DNA of 64,000 nucleotides from Arcobacter sp. FWKO B (GCF_014844135.1 NZ_CP041403.1:1488001-1552000); one strand, 5' to 3'. Positions 1,719 to 9,346 are shown, counted from the stretch's first letter. The notes: generated from the sequence alone by a model not told the origin. Translations and numbers: made by a program.

Positions 1719-4391
1719 TTAAATATTTTGTATAGGTGGTGAGAAAAAATATCCTTGAGAGTAATCAACTTCTAGTTTTTGTAAAATCTCTAATATTTCT
1801 TTATTTTCAACAAACTCAGCAACGGTTTTTATTCCCATTTCTTTCGCAAATTTTACAATTACTGATACAACTACATATGAGCTGTGATTTGTAGCAATAT
1901 CTTTTATTAAAGAACCATCTATTTTTATAAAGTCAGCTTTTAGTTTAATAAGGTATTCAAAGTTTGAATAACCTGTTCCAAAGTCATCTATAGCAATCTT
2001 GCACCCTTTTTGTTTAACCATATCAATAAAGCTAATAACATCATCATAGCTTGCAATTGACTCAGATTCTACAATCTCAAATACAACTCGTGAACCAATA
2101 CCATCATATTTTTCAAGAAGTTCCATAATATATTGTTGTAATTCTTTATTTAATATATCCTGAACAGATAAATTGATTGAAAATTCTTCTTCTTTTGAAG
2201 CAAATGTTTGAAAACTTTTACTAAGCATAATTTTTGTAAGTTTTGCGTATTGTTTTGTTTGTTTAGCAATATCCAAAAAGAAAAATGGTGTTACTACTTT
2301 ACCATCAACATCAATCATCCTTATTAAGGATTCATATTTTTCTAGTTTTAGTGTTTTATTGTTTATAATAGGTTGAAAAAATGGGACAATTTTATCATCA
2401 TTTATAGCTTCTTTTAATTTCTTTGTCCATTTTAAATTATTTTGATATATTTGATTAAGGCTATTTTCACTATTATAAACTATAAATGTTTTTTGCTCTT
2501 TTTTAGATACTTTAAGTGCCATATCTGCTGTTAGTAAAGCAGAAGTGCTACTTTCAAAAGAGACACCACAACTTACATTTATATCAACTTCTTCATCACC
2601 TATTAGTAAATTCTCCTTCTCCAAATTTTCTAATACAATTTGTAAATTGGTAAGAAATTCATTCTTTTTTTGTTGTGAGTCTAGCAAAACAAACTCATCT
2701 GCACTTAGCCTATATAGTAAGATATCATTTATAAATACTTTAGTGCTAATAGTTTGGAGTTTTTTTGAGAATTCTTGTAAGACAATATCTCCAAAATTAT
2801 GTCCATAAAAGTCATTGATCTGTGAAAAACGGTCAATATTTATAACAGCAAGTGCAGTGTTATCCATATTATTTAGATCTCTTTGTAACTTATTTCTAGT
2901 TCCAAGATTTGTTAATGTATCAAAATCTGCAATATATTGAATCTTCTCTTTTTGCTCCATCAGCTCTGTAATATCTCTTCTTATGGAAATATATTCTTTT
3001 GTATTACCATCGCTATCAACAATAGGACTAATGACTGCATCTGTCCAATAATAGCCACCATCTTTTGTTTTATTTTTGATAATACCACGCCAAACTTTGC
3101 CACTTTTGATAGTTGTCCAAAGTTGTTTAAATGTATTTTGTGGAGTATCTGGATGCCTTACTATATGATGTGGTTTATTTATAACTTCATCATATGTATA
3201 ACCACTTATTTGTAAAAATTGTTCATTTACAAAGGTTATCCTACCACTTAAATCTGTAGTGCTTACAATATTAGCAGTGTCTATTGCTTTTTTATAGCTA
3301 TCTAAGGATGCATAGTTATTAGAAAATTTTTCAAAAAGCTCATTAAATTCTTTAAGAATTTTTCCTAGTTCATCATTTTTTTGATACTTAATTTTTTTGT
3401 ATTTATTTATTTTAATTGATTCAATAGCATCTTTTAGTGCATTTAGTGGATTTATAATAAGATATTTACTAAAATACCAAGAAATTGTATATGATAATAT
3501 TATAAGAATTATTCCTAATAAAGCTAACTGTGTAAGAATTGACTTTTTTTCTTTTTCAATAAAGCTTTTATCAATAATATGATTTACAAAAAGTTCTTGG
3601 GTTCCTTCATATACTAGTGTTTTGATAATTTCATCTTTATTGGTTAATACATTTGAATTTATTGTTTCTAAATTTAACTCTTTTGGCAAAATCACTTGGT
3701 TAGTTGCTGTTTGAAAATAAACTTTATATATTAAGTTTTCATTGAGATACTTTAGATCATTTAATCCAAACCAATAATCTAGTTTCATGTATCCAATTAC
3801 TTTATTGTGTGTTTTTATTTCACTAGTATAACAAAATTTATAATGTCCATCTTCAAAATCATTTTTAATTTGCCCTATGCAATCTTTTGTGATATATTTT
3901 TCTTGATTAAAAATAGTTTTTGAATCATTTGATACAAATACCATATTTTGATTTTCATCGTAAGAAATAAAACCAGTTGTAAAATTTTTTGATGTGAAAC
4001 CTTTTTGTGCTATTAAAGTTCCTTCAATATTGTATATACTAATAGAATACTGACTATTGTAGGATATCCATTTATCAAGCATTTGCAATATGTTTATTTT
4101 TTCATTATCAAAAATTACCCCTTGATAATTACTCTTATCTTCATACATAGAGATTAGATTAATAGATGCTTGAATATCCTCTTTTGTGCTTATCTCATCG
4201 GTAACTTTTTTTAAATTTGATTCTATTGAAGCAAGATAGTTTTGGATTTTGATTGAATCATAAGATGTATCTTGAGAAGTTTTGTTATCAAAAACAGCAT
4301 CTATACTTTTTAAATAAGCAACAGCACCAAGAATCAAGACAAATGATATAATTAGTGTCGTTTGGATAAAAAGTTTTGAGTGTATTGTCAT
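1719..4391 (-). CDS. Membrane PAS-GGDEF-EAL cyclic-di-GMP protein (probable phosphodiesterase)
   Basis: The 890-residue protein has a transmembrane segment near residues 7-27, a periplasmic region of about 255 residues, a second segment near 285-308, a HAMP-like linker, a PAS domain (about 370-480, with HPDTP near 411), a GGDEF domain (about 490-640) and an EAL domain (about 660-885). The GGDEF signature is degenerate (SADEF near 561), so diguanylate cyclase activity is doubtful. The EAL domain keeps its key residues: ESLIR, the NLS asparagine, EIVESE, DDFGTGYS near 800, KIDG, AEFVE and QGY. It therefore probably hydrolyses c-di-GMP. The gene starts 9 bases after a periplasmic binding protein gene, which suggests that protein is its ligand sensor (inference). 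Its closest relative here is the protein at 6440-9250. Confidence 0.88.
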   Translation of the reverse strand: MTIHSKLFIQTTLIISFVLILGAVAYLKSIDAVFDNKTSQDTSYDSIKIQNYLASIESNLKKVTDEISTKEDIQASINLISMYEDKSNYQGVIFDNEKINILQMLDKWISYNSQYSISIYNIEGTLIAQKGFTSKNFTTGFISYDENQNMVFVSNDSKTIFNQEKYITKDCIGQIKNDFEDGHYKFCYTSEIKTHNKVIGYMKLDYWFGLNDLKYLNENLIYKVYFQTATNQVILPKELNLETINSNVLTNKDEIIKTLVYEGTQELFVNHIIDKSFIEKEKKSILTQLALLGIILIILSYTISWYFSKYLIINPLNALKDAIESIKINKYKKIKYQKNDELGKILKEFNELFEKFSNNYASLDSYKKAIDTANIVSTTDLSGRITFVNEQFLQISGYTYDEVINKPHHIVRHPDTPQNTFKQLWTTIKSGKVWRGIIKNKTKDGGYYWTDAVISPIVDSDGNTKEYISIRRDITELMEQKEKIQYIADFDTLTNLGTRNKLQRDLNNMDNTALAVINIDRFSQINDFYGHNFGDIVLQEFSKKLQTISTKVFINDILLYRLSADEFVLLDSQQKKNEFLTNLQIVLENLEKENLLIGDEEVDINVSCGVSFESSTSALLTADMALKVSKKEQKTFIVYNSENSLNQIYQNNLKWTKKLKEAINDDKIVPFFQPIINNKTLKLEKYESLIRMIDVDGKVVTPFFFLDIAKQTKQYAKLTKIMLSKSFQTFASKEEEFSINLSVQDILNKELQQYIMELLEKYDGIGSRVVFEIVESESIASYDDVISFIDMVKQKGCKIAIDDFGTGYSNFEYLIKLKADFIKIDGSLIKDIATNHSSYVVVSVIVKFAKEMGIKTVAEFVENKEILEILQKLEVDYSQGYFFSPPIQNI

Positions 4392-4400
4392 TAAGTGCCT

Positions 4401-5294
4401 TTAAAAAATTGGTTCTATTTTATAAACATTATCTTTTGTTACTATAGTTGTATCTATGGTAACATTTTTTTCTACATTTTCACCTTGAATTATTCTTACT
4501 ATTGCTTCTATACCATCTTTTGCAACTGTTGGATAAGTAAAGCTTGCACTTTGTGAGCCTTTTGCGATAGCATCTTTTGCATCTTTTATATAATCAATCC
4601 CAACAGTTGGTATTTTTCTAAAATCTTTATTTTTAGCCATAACTTCTCTAGCACCTATTAACATACTATCACTATGGGAATATATTGCATCAAATTTGAT
4701 ATTATCTTTGTATATTTCATCCATTGCTTTTATAGCATCAGTTCTTAAGTAATTAGCTCTTTTTTTAATAATTTTAATATCTTTATATTGGGATATTACC
4801 TCTTCAAAACCAGCTTCTCTTTGAGTAGTGGGCATTGCTTTTTCTAGCCCTTTAAGCATCAAAACCACACCTTTGTAGTTCATCTCTTTTGCTATAAACT
4901 CCGCAGCTTGTTTTGCAATTTTTTTATTATCAGGTGATATAAATGTTGTATACCCATCACCGTAAATTCCTCTATCTATAAGTATGACTTTAATACCTTT
5001 ATCAATAGCTTTTTGTAAAGCAAGTGATGTTACATGTGGGTCAATTGGACTTGTAATTATAAAATCAACACCATCATGTATAAATTGTTCAATATGTAAT
5101 ATTTGGTTTGCAACTTTTGTTTTTGCATCTTTGATTTCTATTTGTAAAAAAGGGTATTTACTAACCTCTTTTATTGCTTCTTCCACTTGAGCTTTTCTCC
5201 AATCATTTTCTAATGTGTCTTGGGCAAAGCCTATTTTGTAAGTTTTCGCATTTAAAGTCAAAATAGTTAAAAATAAGATAATTAAAATTTTCAT
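4401..5294 (-). CDS. Periplasmic sugar-type substrate-binding protein (Peripla_BP_4/LuxP-like)
   Basis: The 297-residue product starts with a short signal peptide (cleavage likely after LNA, near residue 16). It has the two-lobed periplasmic binding protein pattern of ribose/LacI-type proteins: YKIGFAQ strand, VDFIITSPID, IKVILIDRGIYG, and the hinge-region segments FDAIYSHSD and KIPTVGIDY. No transporter permease or ATPase gene is adjacent. Instead the next gene, 9 bases downstream on the same strand, is a membrane PAS-GGDEF-EAL protein. By analogy with known pairs such as LuxP-LuxQ or NspS-MbaA, the protein may report a sugar or signal molecule to that partner rather than feed an ABC transporter. 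The ligand cannot be told from sequence. Confidence 0.87.
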   Translation of the reverse strand: MKILIILFLTILTLNAKTYKIGFAQDTLENDWRKAQVEEAIKEVSKYPFLQIEIKDAKTKVANQILHIEQFIHDGVDFIITSPIDPHVTSLALQKAIDKGIKVILIDRGIYGDGYTTFISPDNKKIAKQAAEFIAKEMNYKGVVLMLKGLEKAMPTTQREAGFEEVISQYKDIKIIKKRANYLRTDAIKAMDEIYKDNIKFDAIYSHSDSMLIGAREVMAKNKDFRKIPTVGIDYIKDAKDAIAKGSQSASFTYPTVAKDGIEAIVRIIQGENVEKNVTIDTTIVTKDNVYKIEPIF

Positions 5295-5386: not shown

Positions 5387-5926
5387 TTAATTTGTAGTTC
5401 TTGAATTTAATAGTAATAATATTAAATCTTTACTTTCACCTTCTATTGCAAAATCTATTGGTTTTAACCCATTTGGATTTTGGATATCAGTTTTTGCACC
5501 ATATTGTACAAATAGTTCAAACATTTCAACTCTATTTTTAAATGCAATTTGATGCATAGGAGTATTTCCAATGTTATTTGGTATAGAAGTATCAGCATTG
5601 CGTTCCAAGAGAAGTTTTGCAATTGGTAAATGATTCATAACAACTGCATAATAAATTGGGGTAAATCCTTTGGCATCTTTTGCATTTATATCAGCACCAA
5701 TTTCAAGTAAATAAGTAATTATATTAAGATCTCTTTTTTTTATAGCTATATGTAAAGGTGATAACCCAGCAGTTGTTACTGATTGAATAGAGTTGTTTTT
5801 TAAAGCAATCTCTATATCTTGTATATTACCATTGTATACAGCATTATGAAGACTATTCCATCCATTTTCATTATTTGAAAAAGCAAATGAAATAACAAGA
5901 GTTATTAAAATTATTATTTTTTTCAT
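5387..5926 (-). CDS. Secreted ankyrin-repeat protein
   Basis: The 179-residue protein has a signal peptide (about residues 1-17, ending FAFS) followed by about five ankyrin repeats: NGWNSLHNAV, AGLSPLHIAI, KGFTPIYYAV, IGNTPMHQIA and NGLKPIDFAI, each followed by a helix pair of the LLLE-GADIN type. The fold is a protein-binding scaffold, here expected in the periplasm. Periplasmic ankyrin proteins in other bacteria are linked to oxidative stress and catalase, but no catalase gene is nearby, so the partner is unknown. It lies 92 bases upstream of the binding-protein gene on the same strand. The ribosome site is weak (AAGAA close to the ATG). Confidence 0.85.
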   Translation of the reverse strand: MKKIIILITLVISFAFSNNENGWNSLHNAVYNGNIQDIEIALKNNSIQSVTTAGLSPLHIAIKKRDLNIITYLLEIGADINAKDAKGFTPIYYAVVMNHLPIAKLLLERNADTSIPNNIGNTPMHQIAFKNRVEMFELFVQYGAKTDIQNPNGLKPIDFAIEGESKDLILLLLNSRTTN

Positions 5927-6416: not shown

Positions 6417-6443
6417 CTAACCCTTTTGTAGCTAAAGGGTTAG
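6417..6443. terminator. Convergent bidirectional hairpin terminator
   Basis: Perfect 10-bp arms (6417-6426 and 6434-6443) with a 7-base loop lie between the lipoprotein gene and the stop of the convergent GGDEF-EAL gene, which falls inside the stem. No long T-run follows on either strand, so termination strength is uncertain. Confidence 0.6.
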
Positions 6444-9250
6444 CTTATAATTTCTGGATTTGGTTCAGCTATAAAATATCCTTGGGAATAATCTACTCCT
6501 AACTCATAAATCATATCTTGAATTTCTTTGTTTGAAACGAATTCTGCTATAGTTCTCATATTTTGAGATTTTGCAAATTGTACAATAATTTTTACTACTT
6601 CAAATGCATTCTTATCTTGATTTATATGTTTTATTAAAGAGCCATCAATTTTTACATAATCAGCTTTTAGTTTCAATAAATATTCAAAATTTGAATATCC
6701 AGTTCCAAAATCATCTATTGCTATTTTACATCCATTTATTTTAGCTTCTTTAATAAACTCTATAACATTATCAAAATCTTTAAATCCTTCAGACTCAACA
6801 ATTTCAAATACAATTTTATCAACAATATTTGGATACTGTTTTAATTTGTTGATTATAAACTCTTTTATTTCACTACTTTCAATATCTTCAGCTGTTAGAT
6901 TTATAGAAAACTCATAGTCTTTATCACTAAAATATTCAAAACTTTTTTCAATCATTATTTTAGTAAGTTTTTTGTATAGCTTTGTCTTTTTTGCGATATC
7001 TAAGAAAAACCAAGGAGAAATTGGTCTATTATCTTCAATTAATCTCATTAAAACTTCGTATTTCTCGATTTTTTGAGTTTGATTGTTATAAATTGGTTGA
7101 TAATAAGGGACAATTCTATCATCTTTTATTGCAGCTTTTAGTTTATGAGCCCATAGTATATTGTTTTTATATTGATTAGCTTCTGTTTGGATTGACTCAT
7201 CAAACTCAACCATAACAATACCAAGTTTTTTTGCTGTCTTTAATGCTATATCAGCATCTTTTAATACCTCATTATTTAGACTAGAGAGTGCTAATCCTGC
7301 TGTTAAATTGACAGTAATGTCAATGTTATTTATAGAAAAATATGTATCACTAATTTCTTCAATAAACTTGCTTAACTCTTTTTTTATATCGTTGTCTAGA
7401 TGAACTGAATTATCAAACATTAATGCATATTCATCTGAAGGCATTTTGTATATCTTAGCTATTGTATCAAAATATGTTTTTATTTTTTGACCTATTAAAA
7501 TAAGGATTTCATCACCAGTTGAATGACCATAAAAATCATTTATTTCTTTAAAAGAATCTATATTTAAAAGTATCAATTTTGCATCTTGAATTTTTTCAAT
7601 ATCTATAATTAGTTTATTCCGATTTGGTAGCTTTGTTAGGATATCTGTATAGTAAGAGTCTTCTAGTTCTTGTTTTGCTTTCATAATATCAGTAATATCA
7701 TTTCTAACTGCAATATACTCTTTGATACTGTTATTGTTATCAAAAATTGGAACAATTGTAGTTTTTACATAATACCCTTTTCCATCTTTTGTTTTATTTT
7801 TGATAATACCTTTATAAATTTCCCCTTTTGTTACACTTCTCCAGAGTTTAACAAACTCTTCTTTTGGTGTATCAGGATGTTTAAATATAGAGTGGGGTTT
7901 ACCTATTAATTCCTCTTTTGTATACCCTGTTTTTACACAAAGTTGAGTATTTACATATGTTATTTTACCTTCTAAATCAGATTTTGATACAATAGAAGTT
8001 TCATCAAGGGCTATTTGATAAGCTTTTAGTTGAGATACAATATTTTCTAACTCTTTATTTGCTAGTTTTTGTTCTTGGGACTTTAAGTATAGCTCTGTTT
8101 CTTTATTTAATAAAGTATTAGTCATATCATAAAAAACTTTTTGAAATGTACCAAACTCATCATTGAGCTTTTCATTATTATTAAAAAAATGATTTTTGTG
8201 TTTGAAATTTTTGATATCATCAAGAAGTTTTTCTATTGGGTTATTGATATATTTCTTAACAAAAAGATATCCCAAAGGGATTATGATAAGAAAGATTATG
8301 AGCATTGAAAAAATAGTAGATTTTTTCAATGAATCAATCTCTTGGTCAAGTTGTTCAAAGCTCATCATATATGTTATATCAAAGTCTTTTAAAAGATTGT
8401 GTGTAACAATAAATAACTCTTTATTATTGATAACTAGTTTTTCTAAATCTTGTAATAAAGATGCTTGTATTAAAGCCGTACTATTTTGTAACTCATCTGA
8501 TAGTGCATAAAGCAAGTTTTTTGATTTGGCAAGTAAATGTATGCTGTCATTTGTATTTAATGATTGTAAAAACTCTTGGTCAATAAGCTTTACCATAGCA
8601 ATAGTTCCAAGTTTTGTATTATTTGCATCATATATAGTGTGTTGTATATTTAAAAATATTTCTGAATTGTAATGTACGATAGCAATATCTTGATGTTGAT
8701 TTGAGTTAATATATTTTGTGAAAAAATCAACTTCATTTGTTTTATCTGTTTTAAGATTAAAAGTATTGGAAGAGATATCTTTTGTATAAATTATGGTAGA
8801 GTCATTATTTTGTAATGAATATCCAACACATGGTTGGGTTTTTTGATTCATTTTTTGGGATTTATAAAAACTTACAAGAACACCACTTGAGTCTAAAATA
8901 ACCATAAAGTCAGAATTAATAACTTGTGAAAGTATTAATAAATCAGAAGTTATATTTTGATATATATCTTGAAAATTAATATTGTATATATGAGAGTAGT
9001 TTTTAATAAGTGTTAAGTTTGCTAAAAGTTTTTCATCTTTTGATAAAATATCTGCTGTTGAGTGAACTTTATTTGTATATGCTTCAAAGTTATGAGTAAG
9101 GTTAGAATGGACTAAATTAATCTCTAGCTTAGAGTTATTTTTATGAAATTCGATTAGATTATAAATAAATATTACAGACATAAGAGATATAGTGACTATT
9201 ATAGTCAATACACCAGAGAGTAAAATTTTTTTTCTAATTCCAAAAAACAT
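6440..9250 (-). CDS. Membrane PAS-GGDEF-EAL cyclic-di-GMP protein (probable phosphodiesterase), second copy
   Basis: From the ATG at 9250 the product has 936 residues. That start has AAGG six bases upstream; a TTG two codons earlier is less likely. Order: transmembrane segment near 8-30, a periplasmic sensor region of about 270 residues, a second segment near 310-332, a HAMP-like linker, a coiled region, PAS (HPDTP near 453), degenerate GGDEF (PSDEY near 603) and EAL. The EAL domain has canonical EVLMR near 729, NLT, EIVESE, DDFGTGYS near 845, KIDG, AEF and QGY, so c-di-GMP hydrolysis is likely. PAS-GGDEF-EAL is clearly paralogous to the protein at 1719-4391, while the periplasmic parts differ. 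No binding-protein gene sits directly upstream; the next gene is divergent dnaE. Confidence 0.88.
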   Translation of the reverse strand: MFFGIRKKILLSGVLTIIVTISLMSVIFIYNLIEFHKNNSKLEINLVHSNLTHNFEAYTNKVHSTADILSKDEKLLANLTLIKNYSHIYNINFQDIYQNITSDLLILSQVINSDFMVILDSSGVLVSFYKSQKMNQKTQPCVGYSLQNNDSTIIYTKDISSNTFNLKTDKTNEVDFFTKYINSNQHQDIAIVHYNSEIFLNIQHTIYDANNTKLGTIAMVKLIDQEFLQSLNTNDSIHLLAKSKNLLYALSDELQNSTALIQASLLQDLEKLVINNKELFIVTHNLLKDFDITYMMSFEQLDQEIDSLKKSTIFSMLIIFLIIIPLGYLFVKKYINNPIEKLLDDIKNFKHKNHFFNNNEKLNDEFGTFQKVFYDMTNTLLNKETELYLKSQEQKLANKELENIVSQLKAYQIALDETSIVSKSDLEGKITYVNTQLCVKTGYTKEELIGKPHSIFKHPDTPKEEFVKLWRSVTKGEIYKGIIKNKTKDGKGYYVKTTIVPIFDNNNSIKEYIAVRNDITDIMKAKQELEDSYYTDILTKLPNRNKLIIDIEKIQDAKLILLNIDSFKEINDFYGHSTGDEILILIGQKIKTYFDTIAKIYKMPSDEYALMFDNSVHLDNDIKKELSKFIEEISDTYFSINNIDITVNLTAGLALSSLNNEVLKDADIALKTAKKLGIVMVEFDESIQTEANQYKNNILWAHKLKAAIKDDRIVPYYQPIYNNQTQKIEKYEVLMRLIEDNRPISPWFFLDIAKKTKLYKKLTKIMIEKSFEYFSDKDYEFSINLTAEDIESSEIKEFIINKLKQYPNIVDKIVFEIVESEGFKDFDNVIEFIKEAKINGCKIAIDDFGTGYSNFEYLLKLKADYVKIDGSLIKHINQDKNAFEVVKIIVQFAKSQNMRTIAEFVSNKEIQDMIYELGVDYSQGYFIAEPNPEIIS

Positions 9251-9346
9251 TGGCAACCTTGGGTATAAAATAGTAACAAGAGGTTATCTAAAATATAATA
9301 AAAAATACCTTATATCATATTCAATAGGGCTTTATTAAAATCTTGA

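Follow-up and report, generated by a model that had tools for sequence, protein, structure and literature searches.

A sugar-type binding protein paired with a c-di-GMP receptor: a probable two-part chemosensor in Arcobacter sp. FWKO B and its relatives

Introduction

Periplasmic solute-binding proteins (SBPs) that work through a membrane receptor are known from several systems, among them LuxP-LuxQ, in which a ribose-binding-protein-like SBP is joined to a receptor with a tandem-PAS/dCache-type periplasmic fold (LuxQ, a hybrid histidine kinase). Two further systems lead to c-di-GMP: the ligand state of NspS sets the synthesis or breakdown of c-di-GMP by MbaA (Vibrio cholerae, also Sinorhizobium meliloti; PMC8967002), and ScrB, a periplasmic binding protein from the same operon, switches the dual-function c-di-GMP enzyme ScrC of Vibrio parahaemolyticus (PMC10269520). 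The activation of cyclases and phosphodiesterases by SBPs was already recorded in a survey of these proteins (PMC9602780), and a 2022 review of c-di-GMP sensing gives SBP_bac_3 as the only member of the PBP clan studied in c-di-GMP networks (PMC8846402). Our literature search (mostly without subscription journals) returned NspS-MbaA and ScrB-ScrC, both first worked out in Vibrio, as the only SBP-to-c-di-GMP pairs, and no description, for this lineage, of a GGDEF-EAL receptor that goes with a Peripla_BP_4 SBP. SBP-controlled c-di-GMP receptors are thus already known, and no description was found for the present SBP class, receptor family and lineage, which agrees with the suggestion of the first-pass annotation that the sensing system had not been described in this group.

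Here, we analyse such a gene pair from Arcobacter sp. FWKO B, situated in a stretch of 64,000 nucleotides (hereafter the window) that starts at base 1488001 of the complete genome (2,243,170 bp). The pair resembles NspS-MbaA in that an SBP would act on a membrane GGDEF-EAL receptor; however, NspS binds polyamines and belongs to an SBP class other than that of the sugar-type window protein (Peripla_BP_4/RbsB-like, not an NspS-type polyamine binder), and MbaA is bifunctional, whereas the window receptor has a degenerate GGDEF domain and a PAS domain; the likeness drawn here is one of arrangement. With ScrB-ScrC it shares a binding protein encoded together with a c-di-GMP enzyme, but the ligand of ScrB is an autoinducer made by ScrA from the same operon, and inspection of the loci showed no recurrent synthase-like neighbour of window-type pairs. 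LuxP-LuxQ likewise combines an RbsB-like SBP with a dCache-type receptor; it differs in its output (a kinase in LuxQ, EAL in the window, although relatives within the window family do have histidine kinase outputs) and in its ligand, AI-2 being unsupported for the window SBP. The Bacteroides hybrid two-component fructose sensor BT1754 also signals through an SBP of this class, with identical R/R/D pocket residues; that SBP is, however, built into the sensor as its periplasmic domain, whereas the window SBP is a separate protein that would act through a dCache domain. Finally, RbsB and YtfQ of CUT2 uptake systems share the SBP fold and the core pocket residues, yet their genes accompany those for a permease and an ATP-binding subunit, neither of which adjoins the window SBP.

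Results and Discussion

Gene pair and receptor architecture

The SBP gene (4401-5294, minus strand; 297 aa) is followed, after an intergenic gap of 9 bases (4392-4400), by a same-strand gene (1719-4391) for an 890 aa membrane receptor with the architecture TM1-dCache-TM2-PAS-GGDEF(SADEF)-EAL. Both open reading frames are in place, as the first-pass annotation had read them (an SBP gene and, 9 bases on, one for a c-di-GMP phosphodiesterase-like protein). The SBP gene is thereby paired with that of a GGDEF-EAL receptor which sits in the membrane and has a periplasmic domain. The gap and the end of the SBP gene carry a ribosome-binding-like AAAGG ahead of the receptor ATG (within TTTTTTAAAGGCACTTAATG). 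An ankyrin-repeat protein gene with a signal-like N-terminus lies 92 bases upstream of the SBP gene on the same strand (5387-5926); as no ankyrin-like neighbour of the SBP was recognised in the inspected relatives (by reading, without a profile search), it was dropped as a third member of the system.

The EAL (E = 1.2e-62), GGDEF (E = 7.9e-18) and PAS domains of the receptor all scored above the Pfam cut-offs, and its periplasmic part had no Pfam match, dCache included. This part (approximately residues 31-285; 3537-4301, minus strand) lies between TM helices predicted at about 12-30 and 285-303, and was modelled by AF2 with a pLDDT of 87.1 and a pTM of 0.81, with TM helices at both ends. Foldseek matched it to dCache-type domains (3lid, 3lie, 2p7j, from histidine kinases and GGDEF proteins) at TM ~0.45, a value that the long TM helices of the query may have depressed, and also to Tlp3 and TlpQ, while a dCache profile run against PDB by sequence gave chance membrane-helix matches only. 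The large periplasmic domain noted at first pass is therefore borne out, and is predicted from the model to be a dCache, with its pair of Cache modules flanked by the TM helices. The most conserved stretch of the dCache family reads LI..Y.....Y....D.EK, in which Y83, Y89 and K98 are invariant.

The window receptor keeps all EAL catalytic residues (E, N, E, DD, K, E, Q; motifs ESL, INLS, EIVES, IDDFGTGY, IKID, AEFVE and SQGY), which were intact in each of the 27 EAL proteins checked. The diguanylate cyclase motif GG[DE]EF is replaced by SADEF, and is degenerate also in L020, L021, L081 and the paralogous receptor treated below (PSDEY), being intact in the rest. Considering the intact EAL residues and the degenerate GGDEF, the window receptor is predicted to be a c-di-GMP phosphodiesterase rather than a cyclase; other receptors of the family, with intact GGDEF domains, may be bifunctional like MbaA. 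The PAS domain (residues 362-484; 2940-3308, minus strand) has its nearest matches in 3ewk, the solved structure of a sensor protein, and in Aer (8dik, E = 1.1e-29), followed by NifL (2gj3, 5.5e-17), and this likeness to flavin-type PAS domains makes a cytoplasmic flavin redox input plausible.

Conservation across the order

We scanned 399 genomes of the order with a profile of the SBP (A1) and, at a carrier threshold of E <= 1e-40, recovered 28 carriers; the listed matches had E-values from 1e-146 to 1e-100, which sets the subfamily well apart. The SBP loci (n = 36) were read with home-made profiles, and in 32 of them a same-strand receptor with a homologous periplasmic domain directly adjoins the SBP (in L066 with one gene in between), with gaps of -29 to +58 bases and the receptor gene first in L024 and L081. 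The conservation across Arcobacteraceae raised in the first-pass annotation hence holds in one respect, the genes staying together in relatives well beyond the family, and fails in another, the pair being patchy within the family as in the order at large (28/399 genomes).

A second profile (A3), built from the periplasmic domains of SBP-adjacent receptors and run on the same genomes, found the domain in 29 of the 399, namely all 28 SBP carriers and G196 (a weak match in a genome 82% complete). Its presence in carriers is partly a product of how the profile was built, which does not apply to its absence from 370 of the 371 SBP-less genomes. One genome (G003) had a receptor and no SBP that we could find.

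Four SBP loci lack an adjoining receptor: L072 ends at a contig end, and three are orphans in the genus of the window organism, flanked by YebC-like and carboxynorspermidine-dehydrogenase-like genes (named by inspection). Each orphan-bearing genome (G000, G001, G002) encodes an unlinked histidine kinase receptor of the same dCache family, and these kinases played no part in building A3. The orphans sit in a clade of the SBP tree (support 98/96) whose other members pair with kinases, a placement which fits unlinked kinase partners. The orphan of the window genome (L005 9167-10066; genome ~1,716,166-1,717,065) is a paralogue 46% identical to the window SBP, without an adjoining transporter or receptor, and is kept in place in two genus mates; its likely partner is the unlinked kinase beside a hisA-like gene (L105 5764-8154; genome ~483,763-486,153). 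The same genome holds a further SBP-sensor pair: a PAS histidine kinase gene shares 23 bases with the gene of a third Peripla_BP_4 SBP, which belongs to a different subfamily (L004 5815-9079; genome ~803,814-807,078).

Several loci depart from the simple layout. A GGDEF-domain gene stands just upstream of the SBP in L018 (3627-4940; REC-PAS-GGDEF), L017 (1-714) and L072 (856-1779), overlapping the SBP gene by 4 bases in the first two, and a cyclase-SBP-phosphodiesterase operon is a possible reading of this layout. In L066, an NMT1-type SBP gene (6469-7428) separates the sugar-type SBP gene from that of its GGDEF-EAL receptor, perhaps as a two-ligand input. In L075 (5487-6197, G158) an in-frame TAG stands close to the start of the SBP gene, whose matched part begins at profile position 45, the receptor gene being open.

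In further searches, a scan of genome contigs with a single SBP gave only distant Nonomuraea proteins (25-28% identity), and viral contigs gave no match. Plasmids yielded rhizobial SBP homologues (~30%) and no match to the receptor domain, together with one SBP remnant in Aliarcobacter cibarius (plasmid pACIB; L125 6001-6273), an unannotated gene piece covering residues 16-106 at 65% identity, with an IS1380 transposase nearby and chemoreceptor genes on either side.

Exchangeable outputs

Three kinds of output were found among the 32 paired loci: PAS-GGDEF-EAL in 8 (the window, L017, L018, L020, L021, L060, L075 and L081; PAS was tested by Pfam in six, L060 and L075 being assigned by close match to the others), GGDEF-EAL in 18, in which HAMP replaces PAS where tested, and HisKA-HATPase histidine kinases in 6 (L019, L022, L024, L025, L059 and L077). 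The distances of SBPs and dCache domains were correlated (r = 0.84, permutation maximum 0.33), a value that partly reflects shared species history. A better control for modularity is genome G046, with three pairs whose SBPs each lie beside their own kinase receptor but belong to three different clades, of which two are mostly EAL-linked; moreover, the histidine kinase label must have changed four times or more along the SBP tree. On these two grounds we reason that outputs were exchanged while SBP and dCache stayed together, and this constancy under varying outputs suggests, at the level of sequence, that the dCache domain is the partner of the SBP. The two trees disagree on a few deep placements (L024 and the unlinked kinases), which sit on long branches.

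One SBP may also serve several receptors (the adjoining EAL protein, a paralogue and an unlinked histidine kinase), an arrangement that is compatible with a two-part sensor and would extend it. The paralogue in question (6440-9256, minus strand; 938 aa, PAS-GGDEF(PSDEY)-EAL) lies 1.1 kb upstream of the SBP without an SBP gene of its own, making it a possible second client, and the window genome as a whole has two SBPs for three receptors of the family. We nevertheless hold such sharing to be rather unlikely, given that SBPs and receptors are equal in number in most genomes and that the periplasmic domain of the paralogue is strongly diverged (A3 E = 5.5e-17, end branch 3.27).

Binding pocket and ligand

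Following a signal-like N-terminal segment, the SBP matches Peripla_BP_4 (PF13407) with E = 1.1e-44 (153 bits, cut-off 35.1), and its subfamily is marked by an invariant SDSM motif (S208-D209-S210-M211 in the window protein). Its AF2 model (pLDDT 94.7) has as best fold match the fructose-sensing domain of BT1754 (2x7x; TM 0.87, 29% identity), followed by ribose and galactofuranose binders, and superposes on RbsB and YtfQ structures with TM 0.85-0.88, placing it among the RbsB-like proteins. Of the ligand positions of RbsB, R90, R141 and D215 are matched by R108, R159 and D234 of the SBP, which are invariant in 33 family members and agree with RbsB, YtfQ and BT1754 alike. R33 of the SBP also occurs in YtfQ and BT1754; D26 and S208 (N190 in RbsB) are family-specific. 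As the R108/R159/D234 pocket is retained, the ligand is probably a sugar, perhaps in furanose form.

The families matching the SBP were sugar, AI-2 or LacI-type only, and the protein could in principle be a LuxP-type AI-2 receptor, the pair then forming a quorum-sensing system from AI-2 to c-di-GMP, as the periplasmic fold of LuxQ would allow. In a site comparison made against LsrB, the AI-2 contacts (K35, D166, Q167, P220, A222) are mostly absent from the SBP, the position of K35 being taken by D26 and the D166/Q167/P220/A222 region not being kept; for the LsrB family, whose cut-off is 384 bits, the SBP scores 27. LuxP does contain a Peripla_BP_4 domain (PMC12268683), but R108, R159 and D234 suit aldose and ketose binders. 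Among the structure matches shown for the SBP and the receptor domain, none bore the name LuxP or LuxQ. The luxS gene is present in the window genome, but equally in all 50 genomes tested (32 SBP carriers and 18 others), and thus shows no specific link to the SBP. Considering that the LsrB residues are mostly missing and that luxS occurs in carriers and others alike, a sugar-type ligand is more likely than AI-2, and we regard the quorum-sensing reading as improbable; of the two ligand types named at first pass (sugar or AI-2), the pocket favours the former, and the latter is unsupported.

Absence of a transporter

No permease or sugar ABC ATPase was found near the SBP, as the first-pass annotation had observed, and the CUT2-type permease domain BPD_transp_2 (PF02653) had no match anywhere in the complete 2.24 Mb genome, the search being positive in 12 of 14 control genomes. 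The domain is absent from 27 of 32 SBP-carrier genomes; in the remaining five it occurs mostly in adjacent gene pairs elsewhere, none adjoining the SBP. The SBP thus stands without a CUT2 permease, neither the window genome nor those 27 carriers offering a CUT2 transporter that could use it.

Since dCache domains commonly bind ligands directly (as the fold matches Tlp3 and TlpQ recall) and RbsB-type SBPs also serve chemoreceptors, the receptor could sense through its own dCache without the SBP, which would then serve an unlinked transporter or chemoreceptor from an incidental neighbourhood, a reading we consider very improbable in view of the missing CUT2 permease, the adjacency seen, across three kinds of output, in 32 of the 36 SBP loci, the nearly perfect co-occurrence across genomes and the fact that reading the inspected loci (without a chemoreceptor profile) brought up no chemoreceptor as an immediate neighbour of the SBP.

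A two-part sensor and its significance

Given that the pairing recurs, that the outputs are interchangeable and that a matching sugar transporter is lacking, we judge it likely, by sequence, model and analogy, that the gene pair is a two-part chemosensor (SBP and c-di-GMP receptor) and does not serve nutrient uptake. For ligand, docking, direction of effect and phenotype alike, we infer a route in which the SBP would be exported to the periplasm, bind a small ligand (most likely a sugar, possibly a furanose) and, depending on its ligand state, dock on the dCache domain of the neighbouring receptor, the docking site being proposed from AF2, Foldseek and the co-occurrence with the SBP. Docking would alter the EAL phosphodiesterase activity via TM2 and the PAS domain, to which the latter, if of the flavin type, may add a redox input; the resulting shift in c-di-GMP would bear on the motile versus the attached state. 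The earlier proposal of an SBP acting through an EAL protein in the manner of NspS-MbaA is, by analogy, supported.

On balance, we lean towards a broader view, namely that sugar-type SBPs of one purely signalling clade and a dedicated family of dCache receptors have evolved together order-wide, forming a portable input for three outputs in hosts mostly without matching sugar permeases, and that this would be the first sugar-class SBP to act in trans on c-di-GMP. If the ligand is a sugar, it would be a cue, and not a food imported by a CUT2 system. A recurrent family with swappable outputs, including one genome with three pairs, offers a natural test set for the control of receptors by SBPs, as well as for what these bacteria sense.
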